Virus record (IMG/VR): IMGVR_UViG_3300046171_000182
Coordinates: 1 to 64,000 of that record
DNA from: a virus
Reading direction: 5' to 3' (one strand)
DNA: 64,000 nucleotides
The position numbers and the translations under genes are program-made. The notes below the pieces were generated by a model. The model saw only the letters and a program-made list of their open reading frames with translations, was not told the DNA's origin and made no database searches. Shown here piece by piece: positions 38,993-62,989 of the stretch (its first letter is position 1; each line of letters opens with the position of its first letter).

Positions 38993-39931
38993 ATGTCAAA
39001 TGAATTTTTATGGGTCGAGAAATATCGACCAAAAGTAATTTCTGAAACAGTACTGCCTCCCCGATTAAAAGATGTGTTTCAGAAAATGGTGGATACTGGT
39101 GAATTGCCTAATATGCTTTTCACTGGTACTGCCGGTTTAGGCAAAACAACAGTTGCTAAAGCATTATGCGATGAACTAGGATTAGATTACATTGTAATTA
39201 ATGGTTCAGAAGAAGGCAACATTGATACGCTTCGTGGTAAAATAAAACAATTTGCGTCCTCTGTATCTTTACAGGGTGGCGTTAAAGTCGTTATATTAGA
39301 CGAAGCAGACTACTTAAATCCTCAATCTACTCAACCTGCTCTTCGCGGTTTTATTGAAGAGTTTAGTAATAATTGTAGATTCATTCTCACCTGCAATTTT
39401 AAGAATCGTATTATTGAGCCACTTCATTCTCGGTGTGGCGTTTATGAATTTAATACGACTAAAAAAGAAATGGCAGAGCTCGCCGCTGAGTTCTTTAAAC
39501 GGTTTATAAATATACTAAATCATGAAGGCGTAACGTTCGAGAAAAATGCCGCGGCAGATCTCGTTATGAAATACGCTCCAGATTGGAGGAGAGTATTAAA
39601 TGAAGGGCAAAGGGGTGGATTTAGTGATAGCGGCATTAATGGTAACAATAATAGTAATGGCATTGCTTCCATTAATGATCTCGCCAAGCACTTAAAAGAA
39701 AAAGACTTTAAGAAGATGAGGCATTGGGTCGCTAATAATATGGATGTCGACGCATCATCTATCTTTCGTGGATTATATGATAATATGGCAGAAGTAGTTG
39801 CCAGCAGATCGATACCACAACTCGTTCTTATATTAGCGGACTACCAATATAAACATGCCTTTGTGGCAGACCATGAGTTAAACGTTGTAGCTTGTATGAC
39901 GGAGATAATGGCAAACGTAGAATTTAAGTAA
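38993..39931 (+). CDS. 44: Clamp loader ATPase gp44
   Basis: ATG 38993 has GAAGGAAAG upstream and gives 312 residues starting 'MSNEFLWVEKYRPKVISE'. AAA+ motifs are Walker A 'TGTAGLGKTTVAKAL', Walker B 'VVILDEADYLNP', sensor 1 'FILTCNFKNRII' and the arginine finger in 'EPLHSRCGVYEF'. With gp62 it loads gp45. The adjacent gene overlaps its stop. Confidence 0.95.
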   Translation: MSNEFLWVEKYRPKVISETVLPPRLKDVFQKMVDTGELPNMLFTGTAGLGKTTVAKALCDELGLDYIVINGSEEGNIDTLRGKIKQFASSVSLQGGVKVVILDEADYLNPQSTQPALRGFIEEFSNNCRFILTCNFKNRIIEPLHSRCGVYEFNTTKKEMAELAAEFFKRFINILNHEGVTFEKNAAADLVMKYAPDWRRVLNEGQRGGFSDSGINGNNNSNGIASINDLAKHLKEKDFKKMRHWVANNMDVDASSIFRGLYDNMAEVVASRSIPQLVLILADYQYKHAFVADHELNVVACMTEIMANVEFK

Positions 39932-48324: not shown

Positions 48325-49254
48325 ATGGCGATTTCGCTAACGCTCTTTAAGAGCGTCTTTGATAATAAGACGCATCGTAGAATGGACTTCGAGAACTGGC
48401 AACAGCTCTCGGAGCTCTTCTATAAACTGTCTAAACAACCTTTGAAAGGAAAGAAAGATGCGCAACTTATATCACCAGCTGTATATGTTCCTGATACAAC
48501 TAGGGCCAACAAGAATGTGGATGCTTGGGCAGGTTGGGCTGCTATTGATGTTGACGATCACGCTTTTAAAGGCAAACTAGAAGATGAACTTAATGAGCGC
48601 TTTGGTAATTACACATATGTGTGTTATAGTACCGCTAGTAGCACTCATGAATTTCCAAAGTTTCGTGTGGTTTTCCCACTTAAAAGTTCGGTTGAGCAAG
48701 ATAAGATCAAGCACTTCTGGTATGCGCTCAACTCAGAGCTTGGTAATATGGCAGATAAACAGACTAAAGACTTATCTCGTATGTATTATATTCCTGCAAC
48801 TTACGATAACGCTTATAACTTCATCTTCTCTAATGATAATGGCGAATATGTTGATCCAGCCAAACTCATGGGAAAATATGAGTACGCACAAAAATCAAGC
48901 AAAAACTTTATCGACAGACTCCCTGAAGCTTTACAAAAACAAGTTCTTGAACACAAAAAATCAAAACTAGATAATACAAATATAGTATGGACAAGCTATC
49001 GCGATTGTCCTTTCTGGCCAAAGAAATTGGCTAGCGAATACCAGATTATATCTAATACGGGTTGGTATCATAAAATGTACCAGATAATGGTTGCGGTTGC
49101 GGCAAGAGCTGTTGAACGGCAGTATCCAATCACATCACATGAGATAACTAATCTATGTCGAGAGTTTGATATGGGAACCGGTAACTGGTATGAGAATCGT
49201 CCTATGGACGTAGAAGCAGATAGGGCACTAGAATATGTTTACAAAAATATCTAA
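48325..49254 (+). CDS. Primase-like protein (AEP/VirE-type replication domain candidate)
   Basis: ATG 48325 gives 309 residues. The N-terminal half has 'WAGWAAIDVDDH' (a D-x-D metal motif), 'YVCYSTASSTHEFPKFRVVF' (the S/T-H-rich strand then P-(K/R)-x-R-(V/L)-(V/I)-x-P typical of primase-polymerase folds) and 'DLSRMYYIPATY'. The C-terminal part is helical and could bind DNA. This pattern is shared by plasmid and phage AEP-type replication proteins. No helicase domain is fused. Whether it replaces or supplements a gp61 primase is unknown because gp61 is not in this window. Confidence 0.55.
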   Translation: MAISLTLFKSVFDNKTHRRMDFENWQQLSELFYKLSKQPLKGKKDAQLISPAVYVPDTTRANKNVDAWAGWAAIDVDDHAFKGKLEDELNERFGNYTYVCYSTASSTHEFPKFRVVFPLKSSVEQDKIKHFWYALNSELGNMADKQTKDLSRMYYIPATYDNAYNFIFSNDNGEYVDPAKLMGKYEYAQKSSKNFIDRLPEALQKQVLEHKKSKLDNTNIVWTSYRDCPFWPKKLASEYQIISNTGWYHKMYQIMVAVAARAVERQYPITSHEITNLCREFDMGTGNWYENRPMDVEADRALEYVYKNI

Positions 49255-49720
49255 ATTTAACGCAAAAGATATTGATCCAGTATCTTTAAGAAATAGAGCT
49301 AAAAATGAGGCTAACGCAATTTGGAATAATCCCAAATCAAGGCGAGGTAGGACTTATAAAAAACTATTAGCCGATTGTATGCTAGGACAGGCTGCTGAAA
49401 TTAATTTATTGAATTGCGGTTATAAAGATAATACTACAAAATATATGGACGTAAAAGAGCCTGATGAAACTACTGTTGAGGTCAAAGTAATTACAAATAA
49501 GAATTTAAGATATGTAGAAGCTTCGGTAAACAATACGTTAGACAGATGCGCAAAACAAAAATTAGCATCGCTGAGTTCACAAGTATATGAATTTGCAAAA
49601 AAGATTTATATGTACACGTGCGATGAAAAAACACCAGACTATAATCTTATTGGTATATACGAATGGAATGATTCTAAAAAACAATTTATTGGTGTACAAA
49701 AATCTAATGATGTGTTATAA
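49235..49720 (+). CDS. Putative PD-(D/E)xK nuclease-like protein
   Basis: The 161-residue protein starts in the tail of the primase-like gene. It contains 'LGQAAEINLLNCGY' followed by 'YMDVKEPDETTVEVKVIT', where a D...E-x-K arrangement (D of YMDVK, E-V-K) resembles the restriction endonuclease-fold active site. The rest is mixed alpha/beta with a Lys-rich N-terminus. Activity is unproven. Confidence 0.45.
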   Translation: MFTKISKFNAKDIDPVSLRNRAKNEANAIWNNPKSRRGRTYKKLLADCMLGQAAEINLLNCGYKDNTTKYMDVKEPDETTVEVKVITNKNLRYVEASVNNTLDRCAKQKLASLSSQVYEFAKKIYMYTCDEKTPDYNLIGIYEWNDSKKQFIGVQKSNDVL

Positions 49721-50086: not shown

Positions 50087-50276
50087 AGAGATAGATTTAT
50101 TAAAAAGAAATATTCATGATTTGCAAAGACAATTGCAGGATGCTTATATTAGAATCAAAGAACTAAATAATGAGATTCCTGATGGAACTGGCCATGGTCC
50201 AGCTATTATAGATGACGGGTGGGCAGACGAAACTGATATTCAAATCATGTCTACTAGTAGAGGACACAACCAATAA
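50073..50276 (+). CDS. Small coiled-coil protein, unknown
   Basis: The 67-residue protein has a helical, coiled-coil N-terminus ('EIDLLKRNIHDLQRQLQDAY', 'IRIKELNNEI') and an acidic tail 'AIIDDGWADETD'. It overlaps the DUF1599 gene by 14 bases and its stop overlaps kdsA's ATG. Confidence 0.6.
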   Translation: MTKYEEIDLLKRNIHDLQRQLQDAYIRIKELNNEIPDGTGHGPAIIDDGWADETDIQIMSTSRGHNQ

Positions 50277-51058
50277 TGTTAAGAGTTATTGCTGGACCAT
50301 GTCAACACGAATCGCTAGAGCAGTCAATGGAGATTGCCAAGCATTGTAAAGATGTATGCGATAAGTATGATATTGAATACGTCTTTAAAGCTAGTTTTGA
50401 TAAGGCAAATAGAACATCTCTTAATGGTGAACGAGGACTAGGTCTGGTGCCAACAGCATATAGTTTTATAGATATTAAACAAGAGATTCCTGGCTTAAAA
50501 ACATTAACAGATGTTCATAGTGTTGAACAAATCAGAACGATTAGAAATCAGTTTAATTCTTGTATTGATGTATTACAGATACCAGCATTCTTATGTAGAC
50601 AAACTGATATAATTAGAGAAGCTTGTCGTACAGATAAGATAGTTAATATTAAGAAAGGCCAGTTCTTGGCACCTTGGGATGTAGCTGGCATTCTAAGTAA
50701 AACAAAAGATGCTAAAGAAGTCTGGATAACAGAAAGAGGATCGAGTTTTGGTTATAATAATCTTGTTGTTGATTTTAATGGTTTGCAGTACATGCTTGAT
50801 AACTATAGCGTTCCGATTGTATTTGATGCAACACACTCGTGCCAGAAACCTGGTGGAAGCGGTGAAAGTTCAGGTGGCAATCGTGCTTGGGTCCCAGGGC
50901 TTACTCGTGCTGCTTCTGCTATGGGTGTATCTAACTTCTTCTTAGAAGTACATCCAGATCCAGATAACGCACCATCCGATGGACCAAATATGTTAAAACT
51001 AGAAGACTTCGATAGAGTTATAGAAAAAATAGTGGAGTGTAATTATGATCGCGGGTAA
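50276..51058 (+). CDS. kdsA: 3-deoxy-8-phosphooctulonate synthase (KDO-8-P synthase)
   Basis: The 260-residue TIM-barrel protein matches KdsA: 'VIAGPCQHESLEQSMEIA', 'YVFKASFDKANRTSLNGERG', 'TLTDVHSVEQ', 'VLQIPAFLCRQTDII', 'VNIKKGQFLAPWD', 'ITERGSSFGYNNLVVD' and 'PIVFDATHSCQKPGG'. It condenses arabinose-5-P with phosphoenolpyruvate to KDO-8-P for lipopolysaccharide or capsule. Near-full family length (about 275-280). It may support sugar supply for surface remodelling during infection, together with the nucleotidyltransferase at 51978. Confidence 0.9.
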   Translation: MLRVIAGPCQHESLEQSMEIAKHCKDVCDKYDIEYVFKASFDKANRTSLNGERGLGLVPTAYSFIDIKQEIPGLKTLTDVHSVEQIRTIRNQFNSCIDVLQIPAFLCRQTDIIREACRTDKIVNIKKGQFLAPWDVAGILSKTKDAKEVWITERGSSFGYNNLVVDFNGLQYMLDNYSVPIVFDATHSCQKPGGSGESSGGNRAWVPGLTRAASAMGVSNFFLEVHPDPDNAPSDGPNMLKLEDFDRVIEKIVECNYDRG

Positions 51059-51386
51059 AGTTTGGGGTAATACGGAGCTGATAGAAGCAAACGGCGCTCT
51101 AGAGTTTCATAGAATTGAAATGAATAAAGGCGGTGTTTGTTCTAAGCACCTGCATGAGTTTAAATGGAATGGATTCTATGTTGAGTCTGGTCGTATGCTT
51201 ATTCGCGTATGGCAAAAAGATTATGATTTAGTAGACGAAACAATATTAGACCCAGGTGATTATACTAAAGTTAAACCTGGCGTCTATCATCAATTTGAAT
51301 GTTTAGAATCTGGAGTCGCTTTTGAATTGTATTGGGCAGAATTTAATCATAACGACATTAAGAGAGAAACTGTTGGTCATGCATGA
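51045..51386 (+). CDS. Cupin-domain protein
   Basis: The 113-residue protein overlaps kdsA by 14 bases. It shows cupin motif 1 'GVCSKHLHEFKWNGFYVESG' (metal ligands His/His/Glu-like) and motif 2 'VKPGVYHQFECLESG'. It starts 'KVWGNTELIEANGALEFHRI'. It may be a sugar-phosphate isomerase; the KdsA substrate arabinose-5-P requires an isomerase, which makes such a role attractive but unproven. Confidence 0.7.
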   Translation: MIAGKVWGNTELIEANGALEFHRIEMNKGGVCSKHLHEFKWNGFYVESGRMLIRVWQKDYDLVDETILDPGDYTKVKPGVYHQFECLESGVAFELYWAEFNHNDIKRETVGHA

Positions 51387-51964
51387 AAGTAAGTGATGCT
51401 GCAACTCACGTAAAATATTATGCTAGTCATCAAATGATGATTACAAAATTGCAAACCTTTAATGATATAACATATACTGCCGGAGCAGAACAAAGTTTAA
51501 GGATATTGCAATTAAATATGGAAAGGCTTAATTGGTTCCTTGGAGATGTAAGAATACCTAAATTTAATTATACTGTCGACTTTGATAAAAATCAAATAAC
51601 TACTTATTCTGAATACATGTTTGGTACTCAAATACACCCAAGAATTGCATATGAAAATAAAGATGTTATTTATGATAGTATGGTAAACAGCGATCAAACA
51701 TGGTTTTATCAAGAAGGAATAAATACGAAACTAGTCGATTGGCCTCTGCACAAACGTTCTATGTTAATGAGAACTAAAAAAAGTAAAAATTATGGTTTTA
51801 AAGATTACTCATTAGAAAATTTTATTATAAGAGGAACTAAACCATTAGGAAAAGATGAACCACCTTGGAATATTGCATATGTAGATTTAGAAGCTTTTTG
51901 TGAATGTACAAATGATGATCGCAAAAAAGCATTTAAATTTTATGAAGGGGCTATAATTTTATGA
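51383..51964 (+). CDS. Hypothetical protein in the sugar cluster
   Basis: The 193-residue protein overlaps the cupin stop (ATGA). It is soluble, Tyr/Lys-rich, and without recognisable motifs ('HVKYYASHQMMITKLQTFND', 'DYSLENFIIRGTKPLGKDEP'). Its stop lies in the second copy of a 19-20 bp tandem duplication, so the C-terminal 'FYEGAIIL' may be a recent alteration. Confidence 0.55.
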   Translation: MKVSDAATHVKYYASHQMMITKLQTFNDITYTAGAEQSLRILQLNMERLNWFLGDVRIPKFNYTVDFDKNQITTYSEYMFGTQIHPRIAYENKDVIYDSMVNSDQTWFYQEGINTKLVDWPLHKRSMLMRTKKSKNYGFKDYSLENFIIRGTKPLGKDEPPWNIAYVDLEAFCECTNDDRKKAFKFYEGAIIL

Positions 51965-51974
51965 AGGGGGCTAT
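51936..51974 (+). repeat. Tandem 19/20-bp duplication
   Basis: AATTTTATGAAGGGGCTAT (51936-51954) is directly followed by the same sequence with one extra G (51955-51974). The duplication contains the stop of the upstream gene and the ribosome-binding site of the next gene. Confidence 0.85.
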
Positions 51975-51977
51975 AAC

Positions 51978-52400
51978 ATGAAAGTAGGATTTACAGCTTC
52001 AACTTTTGATTTACTTCATGCAGGACATGTGGCAATGTTGCGTGAGGCAAAATCAGTTTGTGATTATTTAATTTGTGGTTTGCAGGTAGATCCTACATTG
52101 GATAGACCTAGAAAGAATCGACCTGTTCAATCAATTGTAGAACGACAAGCACAATTAGCCGCAATAAAATATGTCGATGAAGTAATTATTTATTGTACAG
52201 AAGAAGAATTATGTGATATAATAAACATGTATCCAATTGACGTAAGGATATTGGGTGAAGAGTATAGAGACAAAGATTTTACTGGTAAGGATGAATGTCG
52301 CAAACGTGGCATTCAACTTTACTTTAATAAACGAGACCATAGGTTCTCGACGTCTGATTTAAGGAAAAGAGTACAGTATGCAAATGACAGCAGTCCGTGA
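51978..52400 (+). CDS. Cytidylyltransferase-like nucleotidyltransferase (TagD/RfaE family)
   Basis: The 140-residue protein has the HIGH-type motif 'STFDLLHAGHVAMLREAK' (HAGH, about residues 15-18), 'RPVQSIVERQAQLAAIKYVD' with the conserved R-x-x-x-(x)-A, and the C-terminal 'RFSTSDLRKRV' (I/R-S-T-S/T-x-L/I-x-x-R). Such enzymes activate a phospho-sugar or glycerol-3-P with CTP or ATP. Next to kdsA, it probably activates a sugar for glycan synthesis. AAGGGGGC precedes ATG 51978. Confidence 0.85.
   Translation: MKVGFTASTFDLLHAGHVAMLREAKSVCDYLICGLQVDPTLDRPRKNRPVQSIVERQAQLAAIKYVDEVIIYCTEEELCDIINMYPIDVRILGEEYRDKDFTGKDECRKRGIQLYFNKRDHRFSTSDLRKRVQYANDSSP
52194..52223 (+). promoter_or_regulatory. Candidate internal promoter (TGTACA-18-TATAAT)
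   Basis: TGTACA and TATAAT with the ATGTGA extension occur within the nucleotidyltransferase gene, but the spacer is 18 bases instead of 17. It lies about 155 bases before the ThyA-fold gene and may drive it. Confidence 0.4.
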
Positions 52401-53061
52401 TATTCGTCAATATTTTATTGATGAACTAAAAGACGAAGCTTTTACAATTGATAAGACCGGCGCTAAGACAATAGAAATGCTTGGCGCATCTTTCATTGCT
52501 GATGAGGCAGCCATATTTGGAACAGTTAGTTATGATTATGTTCAAGAAGAATTAGACTGGTATGATAGCCAGTCTACAAACATTAACGACATTCGTGATA
52601 ATCCACCAAAAGCCTGGGAGTATGCTGCAAATACTCATGGTGAAATTAATTCTAATTACGGACATCTTATTTTTTCAGACAAATATTATAACCAATATGG
52701 CTGCGTGCTGGATGAATTACTAGAAAATCCTGACGGTCGACGTGCTTCCATGATTTACAATAGACCGTCTATTTGGATGGAGTATAATGAAAATGGAAAA
52801 TCGGATTTTATTTGTACTAACAGCGTCACTTACTATATTCGTGATAGTATTCTACATTCTGTAGTTCAGATGCGTTCTAATGATGTGGTGTTTGGATATA
52901 AGAATGATTACGCGTGGCAACGTGAGGTAATGAAAAGATTAGTCAGAGATTATAATGCTCTAAGTACTTACGATACAGGTAATATAATTGAAGAAGGTCA
53001 CATTACTTGGCAAGTACAAAACTTGCACGTCTATGAAAAGCACTTTAACCTTGTCAAGTAA
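52378..53061 (+). CDS. Thymidylate synthase-fold protein (dUMP/dCMP hydroxymethylase candidate)
   Basis: The 227-residue protein has ThyA-fold features: 'SNYGHLIFSDKYYNQYGCVL', paired arginines in 'DGRRASMIYNRPSIW' (about 121-122), a nucleophile candidate Cys146 in 'DFICTNSVTYYIRD', and 'VQMRSNDVVFGYKNDYAWQ', parallel to the R-S-x-D-x-x-x-G substrate-binding motif. It is shorter than ThyA (about 264). Because ThyX at 62336 already makes dTMP, a hydroxymethylase role making modified pyrimidine is attractive. It overlaps the dCMP deaminase gene. Confidence 0.65.
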   Translation: MQMTAVRDIRQYFIDELKDEAFTIDKTGAKTIEMLGASFIADEAAIFGTVSYDYVQEELDWYDSQSTNINDIRDNPPKAWEYAANTHGEINSNYGHLIFSDKYYNQYGCVLDELLENPDGRRASMIYNRPSIWMEYNENGKSDFICTNSVTYYIRDSILHSVVQMRSNDVVFGYKNDYAWQREVMKRLVRDYNALSTYDTGNIIEEGHITWQVQNLHVYEKHFNLVK

Positions 53062-53506
53062 GTGGGATCACCGCTATTTAGAGTTAGCGCGCGCGGTTGG
53101 TACCTGGTCTAAGGATCCTTCCACAAGAATAGGAGCTATTGCTGTTGGAATTAAAGGACAGGTATTGGCTCAGGGATATAACGGATTGCCTAGAGGAGTT
53201 TCTGATTCTGATGAAAGATACCAGGATCGAGAGACTAAATACAAATACATTGTTCATGCAGAACAAAATTTAATTTATAATGCAACATGGAATGGTGTCT
53301 CCTTAGATCAATCTACTTTATATGTGACTGGGCTTCCTGTTTGTTCTGAGTGTGCTAAAGGCGTTATTCAAGTTGGAATAAAGAGAGTAGTTATGCCAGC
53401 TAGTGAAGACATAAGGGGATGGGGTGATAAGGCACGTTGGAACGATTCGTGGGAATTGTCTGCTTCTATGTTTAAGGAAGCCAACGTGTTATACGAGTTT
53501 ATATAA
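53033..53506 (+). CDS. cd: dCMP deaminase
   Basis: ATG 53033 gives 157 residues. The zinc deaminase motifs are 'YIVHAEQNLIYNA' (H-A-E, catalytic Glu) and 'GLPVCSECAKGVI' (C-x-x-C), with 'ARAVGTWSKDPSTRIGAI' and 'NGLPRGVSDSDERY' at the N-terminus typical of dCMP deaminases. It converts dCMP to dUMP, feeding ThyX and possibly the ThyA-fold enzyme it overlaps. Confidence 0.9.
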   Translation: MKSTLTLSSKWDHRYLELARAVGTWSKDPSTRIGAIAVGIKGQVLAQGYNGLPRGVSDSDERYQDRETKYKYIVHAEQNLIYNATWNGVSLDQSTLYVTGLPVCSECAKGVIQVGIKRVVMPASEDIRGWGDKARWNDSWELSASMFKEANVLYEFI

Positions 53507-54069
53507 TGGATATGGGATTCAACTCGAGTGTGGAGTTTGTCAAGCTACCAGTAGGATTTAACTTTTGGACTTTTGATAATATACTGTCAGGAGATTTGCC
53601 AAATCAGTTACTGGAAGACAGCAATCAATTCAACTTTTTTAAATTAGATCAGCGCAGGACATCAAGACCTGACCGTATCTATATGCATGAGTATAATATC
53701 GATAGTTTTAAAACTATCGTGGATTTATTAACCAGTAATGGCACCAAAAAGTATTTTAGTGATATTACAGGTATTGATTACACTCGACAACAGGCTAGAA
53801 TTGAACTATGCAAAGACGCAACTGGAAGTTGGTTAGAGCAACATTGCGATGATCCAGCAAAAACTATGACTTGCCAGATATATCTGAGCAACGCCCCTTC
53901 AAGCACAAAAATTGGAACCTTTGGAAGCAAAGCAAAATTTAATTGTGGTTGGGTCTTTTCCAATACTGGGACTGAACCGCATGGATTACCTCCATTGACA
54001 TTTGATAGAACCAGTATTATCTTAAATTATGTAAGTGAAAACTGGCGTGATAGAGAAGTTTTAATATGA
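53506..54069 (+). CDS. 2-oxoglutarate/Fe(II)-dependent oxygenase-like protein
   Basis: The 187-residue protein contains the facial triad pattern 'SWLEQHCDDPAKTMTCQIYL' (H-x-D) and 'GTEPHGLPPLTFDRTSIILN' (distal His, then Arg for 2-oxoglutarate). This is the double-stranded beta-helix core of prolyl-hydroxylase-like oxygenases often seen in marine T4-likes. The substrate (protein, nucleotide or DNA base) is unknown. It overlaps the deaminase stop by one base. Confidence 0.7.
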   Translation: MDMGFNSSVEFVKLPVGFNFWTFDNILSGDLPNQLLEDSNQFNFFKLDQRRTSRPDRIYMHEYNIDSFKTIVDLLTSNGTKKYFSDITGIDYTRQQARIELCKDATGSWLEQHCDDPAKTMTCQIYLSNAPSSTKIGTFGSKAKFNCGWVFSNTGTEPHGLPPLTFDRTSIILNYVSENWRDREVLI

Positions 54070-54078
54070 GTTTATATA

Positions 54079-54174
54079 ATGGATGATGAAGTATTATTGC
54101 TACTAGCTTTGATGACAGTTATCTTTGGCGGTACGTTAATTATTAATTGGATATTTTGGGGAATAGCCGGATGA
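54079..54174 (+). CDS. 31-residue single-pass membrane peptide
   Basis: ATG 54079 to TGA 54172-54174 encodes 'MDDEVLLLLALMTVIFGG' followed by 'TLIINWIFWGIAG', a single hydrophobic helix. Its stop overlaps the next ATG (ATGA at 54171), which supports translation. Its start sits in a 17-bp sequence also found at the start of the oxygenase gene. Confidence 0.5.
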   Translation: MDDEVLLLLALMTVIFGGTLIINWIFWGIAG

Positions 54175-55127
54175 ACGTAATTACAAATCCTATATCAAAT
54201 ATTCCGAAGAATGAGAAGTCGCACGTTCATGGTTGGTCGCAGTTGTGGCGTGATCAACTTGGTGCCTTTATTGATCACAAATGTACTCCACGAATAACAA
54301 AAGCAGATGTTGTTTATATAGATCATGGTGCTAACTTTGGCGGTAGTTTAAATTTATTTGGCGGAGCTAATAAAGAAGTTTATGATAGAATCAATCTTGT
54401 AATGTCATGCGAAAACATTGTCTCGTTAGATTGGGATATGCCTGATTATGGGGCAATGTTAAAGAAAAGACTTTCAGCTGAGACAACCTATAAAGATATT
54501 ACAGAAAAGTGGTGTGATTCTATTTCTAAACGAATTAAAAGTATTACGTCTCTTAAGCAGAAAGATTTAAAAACAGATGGTGTTATTTTTGGAGACTCAC
54601 ATACTATCGCTTTTAGTGATGCAGGGGATCGCGTGTATAGGACTGACGGTAAGACTCTTTTTGGTAGTATACGTAAGGGACTTCGACAAGACATACAAGA
54701 ACCATTGGGCCGACTTACCATATCTCTTGGCTCTATTGACATTAGGCATCACATTCTGCGTCACCCTGGCTTTTCTCTTAAATATAACATCAAAGAATAT
54801 GTAAGAGAAGGTAATCAGATGGCTGACGATGTATGGTTTGCTGCTCCGGTTCCTGTAGAGTTTGAAGGAAGACGTATACCTAAATCAGGATTCTACAAGA
54901 AGACTCCATTCTATGGCTCATGGAAAGAGCGTTGGGATCTTACAAACGAATTTATTGAAATGCTTTACGAAGAATCTAAAGGTAAAGTTGTTATGCCGCC
55001 AAAAGAATGGTATACAATGGATCCTGAAAAATACGCAAATACTTATATGGAACACGGTTCTAGTTTTCATATAGCGCCACCATATTATAGACGCAACGAT
55101 TGGGGAGTATCACCTCTTGGCACATAA
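54171..55127 (+). CDS. SGNH/GDSL-like protein, unknown
   Basis: ATG 54171 overlaps the small membrane gene; an upstream in-frame TTG is less likely. The 318-residue protein has 'GVIFGDSHTIAFSDAG' (a G-D-S-H block I-like motif) and 'GRLTISLGSIDIRHHIL', which resemble SGNH hydrolase blocks. An N-terminal 'DVVYIDHGANFGGSLNLFGG' could be another nucleotide or sugar-binding loop. Hydrolase activity is unproven. It lies in the candidate base-modification run. Confidence 0.45.
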   Translation: MNVITNPISNIPKNEKSHVHGWSQLWRDQLGAFIDHKCTPRITKADVVYIDHGANFGGSLNLFGGANKEVYDRINLVMSCENIVSLDWDMPDYGAMLKKRLSAETTYKDITEKWCDSISKRIKSITSLKQKDLKTDGVIFGDSHTIAFSDAGDRVYRTDGKTLFGSIRKGLRQDIQEPLGRLTISLGSIDIRHHILRHPGFSLKYNIKEYVREGNQMADDVWFAAPVPVEFEGRRIPKSGFYKKTPFYGSWKERWDLTNEFIEMLYEESKGKVVMPPKEWYTMDPEKYANTYMEHGSSFHIAPPYYRRNDWGVSPLGT

Positions 55128-56001
55128 CAATCATGTCATAGACGGAATCAATAAAGATATTAATCCATTTTATGGAGATCCAAAAGAGTATTATTTAGAA
55201 CTAGCAAAAGATTGGGAGGATCCATATGGAATACCTAATATTACTGAGCATAGCGGGATTCGTGTTGTTCGCGACGATTCTCTTGTTGGTAGTAAGGTTA
55301 GGGGCGGCGATTGCCTCATTAGTAGTTTGGGCTCTCACATTGACACTATCGTTTATGTTCAACCTCGCACTGGTCTTGCCGGTGTTAGTATACTTGACGT
55401 CGCCAAACGACATGGAAAAGATGTCATGCTCTTCATGCCCTCAAGTAAACGCATCAGCGATCACCAAGCCTGCTGTATTGAACGGGGAGCACGTACTAGT
55501 TTTCATAGAATAGCAGCTATGCCTAATTTAAATCTAATTGCAAAGAAATGGGCAGATGAAAGAAAGAATGCTTTCTTTGTACCGTTAGGCTTAAAACATG
55601 AAATGGTAACAGCAGGCATTGTAAAGGCTGCTTCTAAGATAAGAGAACCTGAAGAAGTATACACTGCCACGTCCACGGGCGTGCTCACACGGGGGCTGCA
55701 GATTGCTTGGCCTAATGCCAAGTTTACTTCCGTCTGCGTGTCTCGTAATATGAAAGCTGGTGAATTAGGTATTGCAGAAGCCGTATCAGAGCCATTGGCG
55801 TTTACGGCTTCAGAGAAAAAAGACAATCTTCCGCCATTCCCGACTATAGATACCTACGATGGTAAGGTATGGAAATATATTCCAAAGAATACAGGACGTG
55901 ATATTTTATTCTGGAACGTAGGCAAAGAACCGATATTGCAAAATTCAGGTTTACCGGATACCATAGATTCATATAGAGATTGGGAAAAGAATGTGGCTTA
56001 A
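55117..56001 (+). CDS. PLP-dependent enzyme-like protein (tryptophan synthase beta fold)
   Basis: TTG 55117 with GGGGAG upstream starts a 294-residue protein; no ATG fits. The segment 'IRVVRDDSLVGSKVRGGDCL' matches the fold-type II PLP lysine region (D-D-x-x-x-G-x-K-x-R-G), giving a likely Schiff-base lysine. Later 'RISDHQACCIERGA' and 'YTATSTGVLTRGLQIAWPN' fit the substrate and phosphate loops. Substrate is unknown. It overlaps the next gene by 11 bases and may supply or process an amino-acid moiety. Confidence 0.55.
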   Translation: MAHNNHVIDGINKDINPFYGDPKEYYLELAKDWEDPYGIPNITEHSGIRVVRDDSLVGSKVRGGDCLISSLGSHIDTIVYVQPRTGLAGVSILDVAKRHGKDVMLFMPSSKRISDHQACCIERGARTSFHRIAAMPNLNLIAKKWADERKNAFFVPLGLKHEMVTAGIVKAASKIREPEEVYTATSTGVLTRGLQIAWPNAKFTSVCVSRNMKAGELGIAEAVSEPLAFTASEKKDNLPPFPTIDTYDGKVWKYIPKNTGRDILFWNVGKEPILQNSGLPDTIDSYRDWEKNVA

Positions 56002-57007
56002 CGAAGAAGCAATTGATGTTCTCGTAAATTATTATTATCCGAAGGCCGGATGGTTGCAAGACAATGTAAACTGGGGACCTTTAGATTATGAAGGTCCTGA
56101 AGCAAATGAAATTGTTAATGATCCGCTTCTGCAAAAGATTGACATCTATGATTGTAAAACAAGAAACGCTGCAGGCTTCTCAAACGTATTACAAGATCTG
56201 AGGTTCGGATCTAAAACTCCTAAATGGAGATGGCAGAAAGAAGATAGACGTAAGATCTCAGCATCTAATGATAATATTAGTTGGTCAATTGAAACGTGGC
56301 TATACACATTTCTCTGTCATCGAATTACTGGGTCAGGTGCTTCATTTGAAAACGATCATGGTTATCGTAATAATATAATTCAGCATTGGGGTAAGCACAG
56401 AGACATTAAAGATATGGCAGAGGATTTGGTAGAGACTAAAGCCTCTGGAAAACCAATGTTTACATCTATCGGCAATCAACCTCCGGCTCCTAAGAAAGGA
56501 GTTAGTAATGTTGACTTTATGGTAAATGAATTGCCAGAAGTTATCAATAGATTTACAGATTTTCTTCTCTTAAAAAGAAGAGGCCACAAAGAAATTGTAG
56601 ATCATCTAAATGAACATAATAAAAAAGCAGGTCATCGTAAATTTAATTTTCAGTATGCTGCTTTCTCTATGGATTGCTCTGACTATTTTCCTGAACACGC
56701 TGATGTGGATTCTCATACATATTTAGGAAACAACGCAGTACGATGTATGAAAAAATTATCTAAAGGTTGGAAAGATGACGACTTTATGGATCTACTAAGA
56801 GAAAAAACTGGCGGTAAACCAAAAGACCTCGAAGATGTTATGTGTGATTTTGTTCGGTTTGGACAGAATTATGTGCCACGAGGTAATGGAACATTCGATC
56901 ATATTCCTTCAACATTAGCTAATGCATCTGGATGGGAATCTGGATGGGAACAAAGACAAGGCCATCCGCCTATAAAAGGTTTACAATTAGATGAATTTAT
57001 GGTATAA
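55991..57007 (+). CDS. aGPT-PPlase / amino-acid:DNA transferase-like protein (DNA hypermodification candidate)
   Basis: The 338-residue helical protein has a distinctive 'WLYTFLCHRITGSGASFEND' with 'GYRNNIIQHWGK' and later 'NRFTDFLLLKRRG', 'FQYAAFSMDCSDYFPEHADV' and 'CDFVRFGQNYVPRG'. These recall the alpha-glutamyl/putrescinyl thymine pyrophosphorylase superfamily (glycosylase-like fold) that attaches amino-containing groups to activated 5-hydroxymethyluracil in DNA. The match is from remembered motifs. It is flanked by PLP and SGNH-like genes and nucleotide enzymes. Confidence 0.55.
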   Translation: MWLNEEAIDVLVNYYYPKAGWLQDNVNWGPLDYEGPEANEIVNDPLLQKIDIYDCKTRNAAGFSNVLQDLRFGSKTPKWRWQKEDRRKISASNDNISWSIETWLYTFLCHRITGSGASFENDHGYRNNIIQHWGKHRDIKDMAEDLVETKASGKPMFTSIGNQPPAPKKGVSNVDFMVNELPEVINRFTDFLLLKRRGHKEIVDHLNEHNKKAGHRKFNFQYAAFSMDCSDYFPEHADVDSHTYLGNNAVRCMKKLSKGWKDDDFMDLLREKTGGKPKDLEDVMCDFVRFGQNYVPRGNGTFDHIPSTLANASGWESGWEQRQGHPPIKGLQLDEFMV

Positions 57008-57013: not shown

Positions 57014-57865
57014 ATGTTAAAAATTACAATTATAGGCCACGGTTTTGTTGGTAAAGCAATCGACTACGCATTTCAAGATGATGTAGAAAAACAAATTATA
57101 GATCCTAAGTATGACGTTCATTTACACGATGTAAGATTATCTTCTGATGTAACGTTTGTTTGCGTTCCAACGCCAATGCATAAAGATGGCCAATGCGATG
57201 TAAGTATTCTTCGAGATGTTTTACATAAAATTGCTCAACGAAGAAGTGGACTCATAGTTGTCAAATCTACAGTACCGCCTGATCAAATAGAAAATTTATT
57301 TCGTGGTTCTGCTAAACATAGAATGGTTTATAATCCAGAATTCTTGACAGAAAAAAATGCAAATGAAGATATTATAAATCCGTTCGTACATATTTTTGGT
57401 GGCGAGAACGAGGCTACTAAAAAGCTGGAAAGTTTTTATAAAGAATATAGTATATGTAAGCCATGTCCAATATCACATATGTCAGCAACAGATGCTAGCT
57501 TTGTAAAGTATGGAATCAATACTTTCCTAGCAACTAAGCTAACATTCTTTAATGAACTTTATGATACAATAAAAGACTTTGGAGGTAATTATGGTCGTAT
57601 CGCAAACGCAATTGGTACTGATCCAAGAATTGGGCACTCCCATACTCGTGTCCCTGGTTTTGACGGCAAGCGTGGTTTTGGCGGTGCTTGTTTTCCAAAA
57701 GATGTTTCCGCCTTCGTAAACTTTACAACTCATACTCCTTTACTAGAATATGTTATGAATCGTAACAATCAATATCGATCCGAGTATGAAAAAGACGAAA
57801 GAGAAATAGCACAGAACATAGAGTATAATATGACTGGTGAAATAGCACACGTGAATGAACGATGA
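57014..57865 (+). CDS. UDP-glucose/GDP-mannose dehydrogenase family protein
   Basis: The 283-residue protein has an NAD-binding 'ITIIGHGFVGKAI', 'DVTFVCVPTPMHKDGQCD', 'VVKSTVPPDQ', 'MVYNPEFLTEKNANEDI' and the catalytic-Cys motif 'GFGGACFPKDVSAF'. UDP-glucose 6-dehydrogenase oxidises UDP-glucose to UDP-glucuronate. At 283 residues it lacks the C-terminal UDP-binding domain of host enzymes (about 390-440), as in phage versions. It overlaps the epimerase. Confidence 0.85.
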   Translation: MLKITIIGHGFVGKAIDYAFQDDVEKQIIDPKYDVHLHDVRLSSDVTFVCVPTPMHKDGQCDVSILRDVLHKIAQRRSGLIVVKSTVPPDQIENLFRGSAKHRMVYNPEFLTEKNANEDIINPFVHIFGGENEATKKLESFYKEYSICKPCPISHMSATDASFVKYGINTFLATKLTFFNELYDTIKDFGGNYGRIANAIGTDPRIGHSHTRVPGFDGKRGFGGACFPKDVSAFVNFTTHTPLLEYVMNRNNQYRSEYEKDEREIAQNIEYNMTGEIAHVNER

Positions 57866-58794
57866 AAATATTCATAACAGGAATATCAGGGTTTATCGGA
57901 TTCCATTTAGCTAGAGAGCTTAAAGCTTACGGCCATGATATCTTGGGTTGTGATAATTACAACGGCATGTATAATCCATCTCTAAAAATATCTCGATACA
58001 GGATTCTAGAGATGTCAGAGATTCCTGTTAAAAATGCTGATATATGCTCGTTGACTCAATCAGAGGTTGAAGACTGCGATGTTATTGTACACTTAGCGGC
58101 GTGGGCTGGTGTTAGACATTCATTGGAAATGCAAAATGTTTATACAAAAAATAATATAATTGGTACACAAAACATTATAGATATTGCTGAGACGCTAAAC
58201 ATTCCTGTGGTTTATGCTTCTTCATCAAGTGTGTACGCTGGTCAAAATCCACCATTCATGGAAGATATGAATTTTACACATCATCTAAATCCTTATGCTT
58301 GGAGTAAATATGTTAATGAATGTCAATTCAAACACAGTAATGTACCTTCGTCAATCGGCTTTAGATTTTTTACAGTGTATGGTCCTTATGGACGGCCTGA
58401 CATGGCACTTCATGGATTTACGAACAAGATTATAAAAGATGAACCAATAGAAGTTTTTGGTCACGGTGATATGTCACGTGATTTTACATATGTACAAGAC
58501 ATCGTAAATGGTGTACAATTGTTAATAGATAAAGTTTCTAAAATAGATGATCATCAAATCTATAATATTGGTAGTGGCGAATCAGTTCCGCTTATGAGTT
58601 TTGTAAGACTCATAGAAGAAAATCTAGATCGCAAAGCAAAGATTAATTATGTTGATATACATCCAGCGGATATTCGACATACTTTAGCTGATATAACAGA
58701 AATAAAAAGATTAGGCTATCGGCCGATGACTTCTATAGAAACCGGTATTCGCAGCTTTATCAGTTGGTATAAAGATTATTATAAAAAAAATTAG
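57862..58794 (+). CDS. NAD-dependent epimerase (UDP-glucuronate 4-epimerase-like)
   Basis: The 310-residue SDR protein has 'IFITGISGFIGFHLARELKA' (G-x-x-G-F-I-G), 'DVIVHLAAWAGVRHSLE', catalytic 'YASSSSVYAG' and Y-x-x-x-K in 'NPYAWSKYVNE', and 'FRFFTVYGPYGRPDMAL', all typical of UDP-glucuronate 4-epimerases. With the upstream dehydrogenase it would make UDP-galacturonate from UDP-glucose for surface glycan synthesis. Confidence 0.85.
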   Translation: MKIFITGISGFIGFHLARELKAYGHDILGCDNYNGMYNPSLKISRYRILEMSEIPVKNADICSLTQSEVEDCDVIVHLAAWAGVRHSLEMQNVYTKNNIIGTQNIIDIAETLNIPVVYASSSSVYAGQNPPFMEDMNFTHHLNPYAWSKYVNECQFKHSNVPSSIGFRFFTVYGPYGRPDMALHGFTNKIIKDEPIEVFGHGDMSRDFTYVQDIVNGVQLLIDKVSKIDDHQIYNIGSGESVPLMSFVRLIEENLDRKAKINYVDIHPADIRHTLADITEIKRLGYRPMTSIETGIRSFISWYKDYYKKN

Positions 58795-58803
58795 GAGACG
58801 CAT

Positions 58804-59850
58804 ATGTCAGTAATGGACAAACTCAAAAAGAACTCTAAGTTAAAAAACACGGAGGTTCTTTCTGAGTCAAAATTCTTTAATGAAAAAGATATGACTCCGA
58901 CCGATTCGCCAATGATTAACGTGGCGTTATCGGGATCGGTAGATGGAGGTTTAGCCTCTGGCCTTACTGTTCTTGCAGGCCCGTCAAAACATTTTAAGAC
59001 TTCCTTTGCTTTGATTATGGCTGCAGCCTATTTGAAAAAGCATAAAGACGCTGTTATGCTATTTTATGATTCAGAGTTTGGCTCTCCTCAGGCATACTTC
59101 GAGCAATTTGAAGTTGATACTTCTCGAGTTCTTCATACACCAATTACAAATGTAGAAGAACTAAAATTTGATATGATTGGTCAATTGGAAGCGTTAGACC
59201 GAGGTGATAAAGTAATTGTTGTTATTGATTCTATCGGTAACCTTGCTTCAAAGAAAGAGATGGAAGACGCTCTAAATGAAAAATCAGTTGCTGATATGTC
59301 AAGAGCGAAGGCACTAAAAGGTCTATTCCGTATGGCAACACCTTATCTTGCCATGAAGAATATTCCTATGCTAGCAGTCAATCACACATATCAAGAGATC
59401 GGTTTGTTCCCTAAAGCTATCGTCTCTGGCGGTACTGGCATTTATTATTCAGCTGATAATATCTGGATCCTTGGTCGCCAGCAGGATAAGAAAGGTACAG
59501 AGATCCAAGGGTATCATTTTGTAATCAATGTAGAGAAATCACGTTATGTTAAAGAAAAGTCTAAGATTCCTATTACTGTTTCCTGGGACGGTGGTGTTCG
59601 CGGTTACTCTGGGCTTCTTGACGTGGCTCTTGCTGGTGGGTACGTCACTAAGCCTTCAAATGGCTGGTATGCAACGGTTGATATGGAAAGTGGTGAAGTT
59701 GGCCCAAAGGTGCGGCATGATACAACTTTAGAAAAAGAGTTTTGGGATCCTATTTTTGCTGAGACTAATTTTAAAGAGTTTATTAAAAAACAATATACGA
59801 TTGGGCACAGAGAACAAGTATCTATGGATGAGATTGTAGAGGAAGCATGA
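58804..59850 (+). CDS. uvsX: Recombinase UvsX (RecA-like)
   Basis: The 348-residue protein has Walker A-like 'VLAGPSKHFKTSFALIMA' (T4 UvsX: G-x-S-K-x-F-K-T), Walker B 'DKVIVVIDSIGNLASKKE', and 'MLAVNHTYQEIGLFPKAI' with 'VSGGTGIYYSADNIWILG'. It performs strand exchange, loaded by UvsY. TTAGGAGACGC precedes the ATG. Confidence 0.95.
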   Translation: MSVMDKLKKNSKLKNTEVLSESKFFNEKDMTPTDSPMINVALSGSVDGGLASGLTVLAGPSKHFKTSFALIMAAAYLKKHKDAVMLFYDSEFGSPQAYFEQFEVDTSRVLHTPITNVEELKFDMIGQLEALDRGDKVIVVIDSIGNLASKKEMEDALNEKSVADMSRAKALKGLFRMATPYLAMKNIPMLAVNHTYQEIGLFPKAIVSGGTGIYYSADNIWILGRQQDKKGTEIQGYHFVINVEKSRYVKEKSKIPITVSWDGGVRGYSGLLDVALAGGYVTKPSNGWYATVDMESGEVGPKVRHDTTLEKEFWDPIFAETNFKEFIKKQYTIGHREQVSMDEIVEEA

Positions 59851-60152
59851 TAGATGTAAATAAACTTTCTGAGGGTATTGACTATAAGTTAATACCTGCT
59901 CCGGATAACGAACAAGCTTGGAACATAAGGGTCTTAACTGGTCCTTATATTGAGACAGTTGTACAGTTTGGCGCCATTTCTATTAATGGTCCAGAAGAAG
60001 CAATTAATTTTAATTTTACTATTATTGAAAGTCCTGATGATTTATTAACGGTTGAAGATAAGCACTTTCAAGAGTTTTGTGGATTAGTCTTACATGATGT
60101 CATTGAAATGGCTATAAGTAAAGACGAATTAATCATGAAAGATAAAAAATGA
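59847..60152 (+). CDS. Conserved-position protein after uvsX, unknown
   Basis: The 101-residue protein overlaps the uvsX stop (ATGA) and the next gene (ATGA). Sequence 'LSEGIDYKLIPAPDNEQAWN' and 'AINFNFTIIESPDDLLTVED' resembles a small beta-sheet protein that frequently follows uvsX in marine T4-like phages. Function is unknown. Confidence 0.65.
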   Translation: MIDVNKLSEGIDYKLIPAPDNEQAWNIRVLTGPYIETVVQFGAISINGPEEAINFNFTIIESPDDLLTVEDKHFQEFCGLVLHDVIEMAISKDELIMKDKK

Positions 60153-60975: not shown

Positions 60976-62339
60976 ACACAAACATTGAACAGACTATATT
61001 GCGAAACCTTCTGGTGGATGATAAATTCATGCGGAAGGTTTTGCCTTTTATAAAGAATGAATATTTTGAAGGTGTCTATCGCCAACTGTTTAAACAAGTC
61101 GGACTATATGTTCAGAAATATAATAAACTACCAACACAAGAATCTTTTAAAATTGAATTAGATGATGCTGATAATTTTAACGATGAGCAATATCGCCATG
61201 CCGTAGAAATCCTACCTGAGATATTTAAGACAGAAGAAATTGATAATGAATGGCTGATTGACAAGACTGAGAAGTGGTGTCAAGATAGAGCATTACATAA
61301 TGCTGTAATGGAATCTATCAGTATTATAGATGGTAAACATCAAAGTCTTTCAAAGAATGCGTTACCAGAGATCCTCTCTGATGCTCTGGCAGTCAACTTT
61401 GACGCAAATATCGGTCATGACTATCTTGGTAACTTTAATGCTCGATATGAGTTTTATCATAAAGAGGAAGAACGTGTAGCATTTGATTTAGAATATTTTA
61501 ATAAAATTACAAAAGGCGGTTTGCCAAATAAGACTTTAAACATTTGCCTTGCCGGTACGGGTGTCGGTAAATCGTTGTTTATGTGTCACCAAGCTTCGGC
61601 TGCTCTTACAGATCAAAAGAATGTTCTTTACATTACAATGGAAATGGCAGAAGAACGTATCGCAGAGCGTATTGATGCCAACCTTCTTAATATTCCAATC
61701 GATCAACTAGATAAACTTTCAAGAGATATGTTCTCGCAGAAAGTATCTCAGCTTGCTAAACAAACAAACGGTCGATTAATTGTAAAAGAATATCCTACTG
61801 GCTCTGCACACTCTGGTCACTTCCGTGCATTACTTAACGAACTAAAACTAAAAAAGAAATTTGTGCCAGATATTATCTTCATTGATTATCTTAATATCTG
61901 TGCATCTTCACGTATGAAAGCAATGGGAGGATCAATCAATTCCTATACGTACATTAAAGCAATTGCTGAAGAGCTACGTGGTCTTGCGGTCGAGTTTGAC
62001 GTACCGGTCGTCTCTGCAACGCAAACGACTCGTAGTGGTTATTCTAACTCAGATATTGGGCTTGAAGATACGTCCGAGTCTTTTGGATTACCCGCAACCG
62101 CCGACTTAATGTTTGCACTTATCTCTTCTGAAGAGCTTGAGAAAGAAGGCAAGATTATGGTCAAGCAATTAAAGAATAGATATAACGATCCAACTTATAA
62201 AAAGAAATTTGTAGTAGGCGTCGATAGATCTAAGATGAGATTGTACGACGTTGATGAAACTAGTCAGACTCTTAGTGATGATACTCCGGTCTTTGATCGG
62301 GCAGAAATGAACAAGCGATTTGAGGACTTTAAACTTTGA
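60972..62339 (+). CDS. 41: Replicative DNA helicase gp41 (DnaB-like)
   Basis: The start is TTG 60972, overlapping the corrected end of the nucleotidyltransferase. The 455-residue protein has an N-terminal helical domain, then 'LNICLAGTGVGKSLFMCHQA' (Walker A), 'VLYITMEMAEERIAERIDAN', 'DIIFIDYLNICASSR' (Walker B) and 'VVSATQTTRSGYSNSDIGLE' motifs of DnaB-family ring helicases. The C-terminus 'AEMNKRFEDFKL' is acidic. Confidence 0.95.
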   Translation: MNTNIEQTILRNLLVDDKFMRKVLPFIKNEYFEGVYRQLFKQVGLYVQKYNKLPTQESFKIELDDADNFNDEQYRHAVEILPEIFKTEEIDNEWLIDKTEKWCQDRALHNAVMESISIIDGKHQSLSKNALPEILSDALAVNFDANIGHDYLGNFNARYEFYHKEEERVAFDLEYFNKITKGGLPNKTLNICLAGTGVGKSLFMCHQASAALTDQKNVLYITMEMAEERIAERIDANLLNIPIDQLDKLSRDMFSQKVSQLAKQTNGRLIVKEYPTGSAHSGHFRALLNELKLKKKFVPDIIFIDYLNICASSRMKAMGGSINSYTYIKAIAEELRGLAVEFDVPVVSATQTTRSGYSNSDIGLEDTSESFGLPATADLMFALISSEELEKEGKIMVKQLKNRYNDPTYKKKFVVGVDRSKMRLYDVDETSQTLSDDTPVFDRAEMNKRFEDFKL

Positions 62340-62989
62340 AGGTAAGATTAATTGGTTACACTCAACCACCAGAAGATATCGTCGGTCTCGACGATCTACA
62401 AGACATCGTCGCGTATTGTGCCCGTGTCTCCAACCCATCCAACCAAATCAACTCAGAGACATCGGGAAAACTCCTCGACTACCTCATCAAGCACAAACAC
62501 TGGTCACCGTTCGAAATGTGCTCGGCCACGCTCGAAGTCGAAACGACAAGAGATATTGCGAGACAGTTCCTCAGGCACAGGTCGTTTTCCTTTCAAGAGT
62601 TTAGCCAGCGTTATGCTGATATTCGTTCTTTTAATAATTCTTTTGTGATACGTGAGGCAAGACTTCAAGACGAAAAGAATCGGCAAAATAGCGTAGCTAA
62701 TACAGATAAGAAGCTTTCTATGGAATGGGACGCTAAACAAAATAAAGTAATAAAAGAAGCTAAAGCTGCTTATAATTGGGCAATAGAAAATGGAATCGCA
62801 AAAGAACAAGCAAGAGCAGTGTTGCCAGAAGGTAACACCGTTAGTAAGCTCTATGTTAATGGCACCATTCGTAGCTGGATACATTATATCGAGCTCCGTT
62901 CTGCAAATGGGACACAACTTGAACATATGGAATTGGCAAGAGAAGTCGGACAAACAATAGCAAAGATTTTTCCATATTTTGCAGAGTGA
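62336..62989 (+). CDS. thyX: Flavin-dependent thymidylate synthase ThyX
   Basis: TTG 62336 overlaps the gp41 stop. The 217-residue protein contains the ThyX motif 'RHRSFSFQEFSQRY' at residues 80-93 (R-H-R-x7-S/Q-R-Y), 'HWSPFEMCSATLEVE' and the C-terminal 'IRSWIHYIELRSANGTQLEH'. It makes dTMP from dUMP using methylene-THF and FAD. The 5' third has unusually GC-rich codons compared with the rest of the gene. Confidence 0.95.
   Translation: MKVRLIGYTQPPEDIVGLDDLQDIVAYCARVSNPSNQINSETSGKLLDYLIKHKHWSPFEMCSATLEVETTRDIARQFLRHRSFSFQEFSQRYADIRSFNNSFVIREARLQDEKNRQNSVANTDKKLSMEWDAKQNKVIKEAKAAYNWAIENGIAKEQARAVLPEGNTVSKLYVNGTIRSWIHYIELRSANGTQLEHMELAREVGQTIAKIFPYFAE

Follow-up and report, generated by a model that had tools for sequence, protein, structure and literature searches.

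Phages are known to decorate the bases of their DNA in several ways: by amino-acid hypermodification of hydroxymethyluracil (M6, ViI), by glucosylation or carbamoylation of 5-hydroxymethylcytosine (hmC), as arabinosyl-cytosine, and by placing glycine on carboxymethylcytosine. Here we compare these systems with a locus in a 64,000-nucleotide stretch of viral DNA (the window), which is positions 1 to 64,000 of the 135,206-base IMG/VR virus record IMGVR_UViG_3300046171_000182. The locus lies between a gp42-like gene and a uvsX-like gene and includes genes for a protein with a predicted SGNH fold (g54147), a pyridoxal phosphate (PLP) enzyme and a protein with a predicted helix-hairpin-helix (HhH) glycosylase fold (g55991). 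In our judgment it is probably, albeit by no means certainly, an hmC decoration cassette that replaces the T4-type DNA glucosyltransferase and adds an amino-containing group.

In T4 the gene order is 43-imm-42-bgt-segA-uvsX, and the beta-glucosyltransferase gene, together with segA, fills the gap between 42 and uvsX. The replication genes of the window's record follow the same order as in T4 (43 ... 42 ... uvsX ... 41); its DNA polymerase is nearest to that of Phage C48C1 (56%), with cyanophages next. The locus shares with the glucosylation of hmC in T4 the gp42 enzyme and the slot between gp42 and uvsX, and in sister loci a homologous alpha-glucosyltransferase fills this slot. In the window, however, the slot contains genes for a dCMP deaminase, a 2-oxoglutarate (2OG) oxygenase-like open reading frame (ORF), g54147, the PLP enzyme, g55991, a UDP-glucose dehydrogenase-like protein (Ugd) and an epimerase, and no glucosyltransferase. 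Since both lie between gp42 and uvsX, the cassette occupies the position of the T4 beta-glucosyltransferase gene.

The locus also resembles the thymidine hypermodification systems of Pseudomonas phages M6 and PaMx11 and of Salmonella phage ViI. The steps of the M6 and ViI pathways, with a 5-hydroxymethyldeoxyuridine (5-hmdU) kinase, an amino-acid transferase and a PLP enzyme, were reportedly assigned by Lee et al. in 2018 and 2022. The window shares with these phages a PLP enzyme belonging to the family of M6 gp52 and, in the model of g55991, a fold like that of PaMx11 gp46 and of models named amino acid:DNA transferase (ADDT). It differs in that the base is predicted to be cytosine, that a 5-hmdU kinase was not found, that an extra SGNH protein is present and that g55991 falls outside the curated profiles.

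Other described systems combine some of these elements. Synechococcus phage S-B43 makes 5-carboxymethylcytosine-glycine by means of CmoA, CmoX and CmoY, with a Cx-SAM-dependent carboxymethyltransferase and an ATP-dependent ligase acting on DNA cytosine (PMC12783734). This is also a phage amino acid on a 5-substituted cytosine, but the described pathway contains no gp42, SGNH, PLP or HhH genes. An environmental phage cassette identified by MetaGPA (eLife 2021) decorates hmC to 5-carbamoyloxymethylcytosine with a ThyA-family enzyme, mostly with Asp177, and a carbamoyltransferase (PMC8670742); the ThyA-family enzyme and, for the window as a prediction, the decoration of hmC are common to both loci, whereas no carbamoyltransferase was seen at the window locus. 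In RB69 and Mosigvirus, which have arabinosyl-cytosine, a T4-like phage encodes a non-glucose decoration between 43 and uvsX (PMC13390438). RB69 differs in making 5-hydroxy-dCMP, and its synthase for this nucleotide (ORF048c) is 24.5% identical to the window enzyme. In the searchable literature, in which subscription journals are poorly covered, we came across no account of hmC being modified by an SGNH/PLP/HhH set.

The gp42-like enzyme and the modified base

The ThyA-fold ORF at 52378-53061, which like all genes of the slot is on the plus strand, matches PF00303 (4.7e-14), as an earlier note on this DNA had suggested. Its product aligns with T4 gp42 at 50.9% identity; the best phage match (55%) is gp42 of Citrobacter phage Moon. 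The comparison with the solved T4 enzyme (1b49) gives an E value of 6e-72 over residues 5-226, in which ICTN stands opposite MCTN, the motif of the catalytic Cys. Furthermore, YKND is opposite FRND of T4, which places an Asp at the position of Asn177 of E. coli ThyA; the sequences of 6l18 and 6a9a have Asn where the window protein has Asp. An Asp at this position has a role in dCMP selectivity (PMC8670742). The ThyA-like protein of ViI is only 24.0% identical to the window protein, and sister loci with a gp42 about 70% identical to it carry an hmC-type alpha-glucosyltransferase. Homology therefore strongly supports the prediction that the ThyA-fold protein is a T4-type dCMP 5-hydroxymethylase and not a dUMP hydroxymethylase. 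Because the enzyme is gp42-like and has the dCMP-type Asp, the modified base should be cytosine, as hmC, and not thymidine. The earlier note had taken thymidine, as hydroxymethyluracil, for the target of a hypermodification locus with SGNH, PLP and transferase-like enzymes; the type of locus holds up, the base does not.

The same note had drawn attention to a ThyX beside the ThyA-fold gene, and an ORF is indeed present at 62336-62989, where ThyX had been placed. This arrangement would be explained if gp42 is a dCMP hydroxymethylase, as in T4, where a thymidylate synthase is likewise encoded separately. The dCMP deaminase gene overlaps that of gp42 (53033-53506; PF00383 5e-18, phrog_174), as previously noted; its likely start was moved from 52988 to 53033 by inspection. 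A dCMP deaminase occurs in most gp42 loci regardless of the type of cassette.

Exchange of the cassette with alpha-glucosyltransferase

A set of about 80 IMG/VR loci was collected with g55991 as the anchor. The constant members of these loci are gp42, g54147, the PLP enzyme and g55991, while the remaining neighbours in the slot vary. The genes occur in two orders, 42-dCMP deaminase-g54147-PLP-g55991 and 42-g55991-PLP-g54147; a further group of loci has gp42, g54147 and g55991 without the PLP gene. As an unbiased control we used loci anchored on gp42 whose sequence extends 4 kb or more downstream of this gene (n=62). The complete set of g54147, PLP and g55991 is present in 15/62 of them and the pair g54147 and g55991 without PLP in another 10, so that 25/62 carry the cassette. 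DNA alpha-glucosyltransferase (AGT) occurs in 23 loci, a phrog_14998 gene in eight, and none of these in the remaining six; one AGT gene was tested against Pfam (PF11440, E 1.4e-27) and the others were called by similarity to that gene. The pair was found together with AGT in 0/62 loci. The chance of such a zero overlap is 1e-7 if the loci are independent; the loci are, however, related. Loci that seem to have only g54147 or only g55991 are cut by a contig end, and otherwise the two genes are never apart.

The gp42 tree, a quick tree with several open forks, requires at least 17 changes over all cassette states and at least eight between the pair and AGT. For example, one cassette locus (L267) stands beside three AGT loci (L263, L265 and L270), the end branches of their gp42 being no longer than about 0.015. 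AGT (PF11440) was not found in the whole record of the window or in four other cassette records, while T4 and one AGT record (G005) were positive controls. A 5-hmdU DNA kinase (PF18748) was likewise not found in the 135 kb record or in four other cassette records, all of them possibly incomplete; the ViI control was found. The mutual exclusion of the pair and AGT and their repeated exchange indicate that the slot is an exchangeable position for hmC decoration. The SGNH/PLP/g55991 set thus appears as an alternative to glucosylation at the same slot.

The exchange also helps to delimit the cassette. The P-loop kinase at 60149 and the DUF1599 gene, which had both been counted as members, also occur in glucosyltransferase-carrying relatives. 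The kinase was considered as a candidate 5-hmdU kinase and rejected, since it resembles APS kinases and is found, together with an NMNAT-like gene, in AGT loci as well. The ORF at 53506-54069 was read as a 2OG-Fe(II)-oxygenase from motifs by eye only; it has no significant family match and no relative in the loci or phages searched, and we do not count it as part of the cassette. Ugd (57014-57865; PF03721/PF00984, phrog_9148) and the nucleotide-sugar epimerase (57862-58794; PF01370) occur in AGT loci as well and are not specific to the cassette; many cassette loci are without them.

Relatives of the SGNH protein are present in 43 phage records, mostly from Aeromonas. In 44RR, 31 and their kin (19 records) the SGNH protein is the N-terminal part of a protein of about 795 amino acids (44RR ORF233c). 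The C-terminal part of this fusion gives a weak match to PF18723, the helical domain of 5-hmdU kinases (HMUDK_hel; E 0.0036 and 4e-4), and an E value of 0.0013 with the M6 gp55 family. In 44RR and in Aeromonas phage 25 gp42 is present and AGT was not found. Petrov et al. 2010 noted that a glucosyltransferase is lacking in gp42-bearing phages such as 44RR, 31 and RB69, and posed the question of another modification of hmC in them (PMC2993671). The present analysis names concrete candidate genes for this question, which can be tested on cultured phages, and indicates that the glucosyltransferase was replaced at the same locus repeatedly.

The cassette proteins, a possible pathway and its alternatives

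The gene of g54147 spans 54171-55127 (the ORF is listed from 54147; the start was set from relatives). Its AlphaFold2 (AF2) model has a pLDDT of 89.8, and residues 135-321 or so match structures of SGNH hydrolases and acyltransferases with Z 10-12 (best 11.9 over 161 residues). According to this model g54147 carries an SGNH hydrolase/acyltransferase fold, in agreement with the SGNH-like assignment made before. GDSH, the block with the nucleophile Ser, and G-x-I-D-x-RHH are invariant in its relatives. The canonical Asp-x-x-His of block V is not present as such: His308 is kept, the acid of the DxxH is not, and a conserved Glu lies six residues ahead of His308 (reading by eye). The SGNH fold is preceded by an N-terminal domain of about 130 amino acids (residues 1-134; 54171-54572), in which LNLFGG resembles INFFGG at the N-terminus of T4 beta-glucosyltransferase. 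This likeness is not significant, and the suspicion of a beta-glucosyltransferase-like domain was dropped.

The PLP gene (55117-56001), an optional member, encodes a PLP enzyme of fold type II, as the earlier note had recognized. The best family of its product is phrog_7093 (E 3.8e-34; residues 45-270 on profile positions 15-279 of 279), a family to which M6 gp52 also belongs, with a score of 530 bits. The hhalign comparison with the M6 gp52 family gave an E value of 7e-9 over 219 columns. Lys60, the Schiff-base lysine of the SK motif, and the STGV loop are invariant in its relatives. Judged from sequence, the enzyme is homologous over most of its length to M6 gp52, a PLP enzyme of a known thymidine hypermodification pathway. 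Its nearest relatives in cultured phages, Erythrobacter phage R6L gp1 (L113) and a protein of a Microcystis phage (L114:7986-8696), are annotated as DNA modification methylases; the Microcystis gene adjoins two genes annotated as ParB/sulfiredoxin.

The AF2 model of g55991 (55991-57007) is mostly helical and of moderate confidence (pLDDT 65.8, pTM 0.67). Its best matches among the viral models of BFVD include one of 28% identity named amino acid:DNA transferase, followed by another ADDT; with the query at this pLDDT, the E values are 4e-10 for ADDT and 1.6e-3 for aGPT-PPlase1, and the HMUDK_hel matches are weak. The matches in the PDB are HhH glycosylases, with the 8-oxoguanine glycosylase AGOG at the top (Z 9.8); PaMx11 gp46, the 5-PmdU glycinyltransferase (8z2n), aligns with Z 8.6 and rmsd 4.1 over 202 residues. 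The transferase-like character ascribed to this gene thus finds an echo in the HhH-type, ADDT-like model and none in the curated profiles. The aGPT-PPlase and 5-hmdU-kinase profile searches that had been suggested yielded no match for g55991 (ADDT, HMUDK_hel) or for the record (PF18748), and the attempt to identify g55991 as an aGPT-PPlase/ADDT by sequence alone failed, since the profiles do not reach it. PF18724 (ADDT) was matched neither by g55991 nor by its relatives, while the positive control, ViI Vi01_199, gave 3.2e-58. A search of cultured phages with a divergent member returned chance matches to portal proteins only. A PF18724 match at 39449 (E 0.0125) and matches to MukB and S100 were also judged to be chance. 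On the basis of the model and of its pairing with the SGNH gene, we consider g55991 a candidate HhH-fold amino-acid:DNA transferase.

The following pathway can be envisaged. In the first step, which homology strongly supports, gp42 would turn dCMP into 5-hydroxymethyl-dCMP, which enters the phage DNA. Judging from its fold, g55991 would then flip the base and link its 5-methylene carbon to an amine, an amino acid being the most likely. The SGNH protein might provide activation or acyl chemistry in place of the DNA kinase of the thymidine pathways. In loci that have it, the PLP enzyme could trim this amino acid to an aminoalkyl group, probably through a decarboxylation such as its M6 relative, gp52, presumably carries out. 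The product would be DNA shielded from restriction, comparable to glucosyl-hmC. It is possible, but we put it forward only tentatively, that this is a kinase-independent amino-acid hypermodification of hmC (the SGNH protein activates or acylates the hydroxyl, the HhH transferase swaps in the amino acid and PLP optionally trims it), that it is exchanged freely with AGT in marine T4-like phages, and that Aeromonas phages 44RR and 31 decorate their hmC in the same way. If true, thymidine-type amino-acid chemistry would be joined to hmC, and the activation step would differ from that of the known kinases.

Several observations weigh against an amino-containing decoration. The known activation step is missing, no homolog of the 5-hmdU DNA kinase having been found in the cassette records. 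The confidence of the g55991 model is only moderate, and its matches to AGOG glycosylases are no weaker than that to the glycinyltransferase. No curated profile (Pfam including ADDT PF18724 and HMUDK_hel PF18723, PHROGs, NCBIfam) matched g55991, and comparison by hhalign with the M6 gp55, M6 gp51 and ViI 199 families yielded nothing significant, the lowest E value being 0.03 for a single pair. The SGNH protein of Aeromonas phage 25 has other neighbours, namely a UDP-galactopyranose-mutase-like gene (by eye) and a glycosyltransferase (GT)-like gene homologous to the phrog_14998 GT-like gene; in view of these neighbours the role of the SGNH protein may not be confined to amino acids.

The neighbours in phage 25 favour another reading, in which hmC is glycosylated or acylated, with a nucleotide sugar produced by Ugd and the epimerase, acylation of the sugar or the hydroxyl by the SGNH protein, and g55991 as an accessory DNA-binding protein. 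Ugd and the epimerase do adjoin the cassette in the window, and the likeness of LNLFGG to INFFGG, not significant as it is, would fit. However, homologs of AGT, BGT and phrog_14998 were not found in the record, many cassette loci lack Ugd and the epimerase, and it is hard to see what a PLP enzyme related to M6 gp52 would do in glycosylation. We consider this reading rather unlikely.

The AGOG matches of g55991 could alternatively mean that it is an AGOG-like DNA glycosylase acting on host or unmodified DNA, and that the slot genes are counter-host factors with no decoration pathway. This is improbable, as the named viral-model matches are DNA-modification transferases, g55991 has as its neighbour a PLP enzyme from a family involved in hypermodification, and the repeated exchange with AGT, never with both present, better fits a substitute for glucosylation. 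Just as improbable, in our view, is a role of the three genes in the metabolism of small molecules or of the envelope, which is the probable function of KdsA, Ugd, the epimerase and the cytidylyltransferase, with plain hmC in the phage DNA. The region is rich in sugar-nucleotide genes, but these do not track the cassette, while the pair is strictly linked to gp42 in several gene orders and excludes AGT. Finally, a thymidine hypermodification, with the ThyA-fold enzyme making hydroxymethyl-dUMP and the other genes decorating hydroxymethyluracil, would agree with the M6/ViI-like folds of the PLP and transferase-like proteins but is hardly tenable given the gp42-like enzyme with its substrate-selecting Asp, its distance from the ViI protein, the AGT of the sister loci and the failure to find a 5-hmdU kinase.

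Neighbouring genes and other contents of the slot

The uvsX-like gene (58804-59850) is the kept downstream gene in relatives and bounds the slot as in T4. No Rfam or tRNA features were found. Single-sequence searches of the 135 kb record gave no homologs of T4 gp56, gp1, alc, denA, denB, arn, agt or bgt; a MazG-like gene may be a candidate for the dCTPase job. Adjoining gp42, the region 50276-52400 contains genes for a KDO-8-phosphate synthase (above the NCBIfam cut-off), a cupin and a cytidylyltransferase-like protein, which co-occur with any cassette. A 161-aa ORF at 49235-49720, common in related loci, has no family match; it shows an E...D...ExK-like pattern by eye and is perhaps a PD-(D/E)xK nuclease.

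The slot holds other genes in related loci. The phrog_14998 GT-like gene forms a third type of cassette (L283:7241-9366 and L083:5791-7972), to which L283 adds a UDP-galactopyranose mutase; the gene is a candidate hmC galactofuranosyl transferase. An AGT locus has a C5-cytosine-methylase-like ORF in or adjoining the slot (L257:12802-13986), and radical SAM ORFs are similarly placed in two loci (L248:9105-10922 and L274:4437-6380). Slots without AGT, phrog_14998 and the SGNH pair (L302:2459-3955 and L306:9616-10713) encode NTP-transferases together with kinase- or HAD-like proteins, possibly for further sugar decorations.

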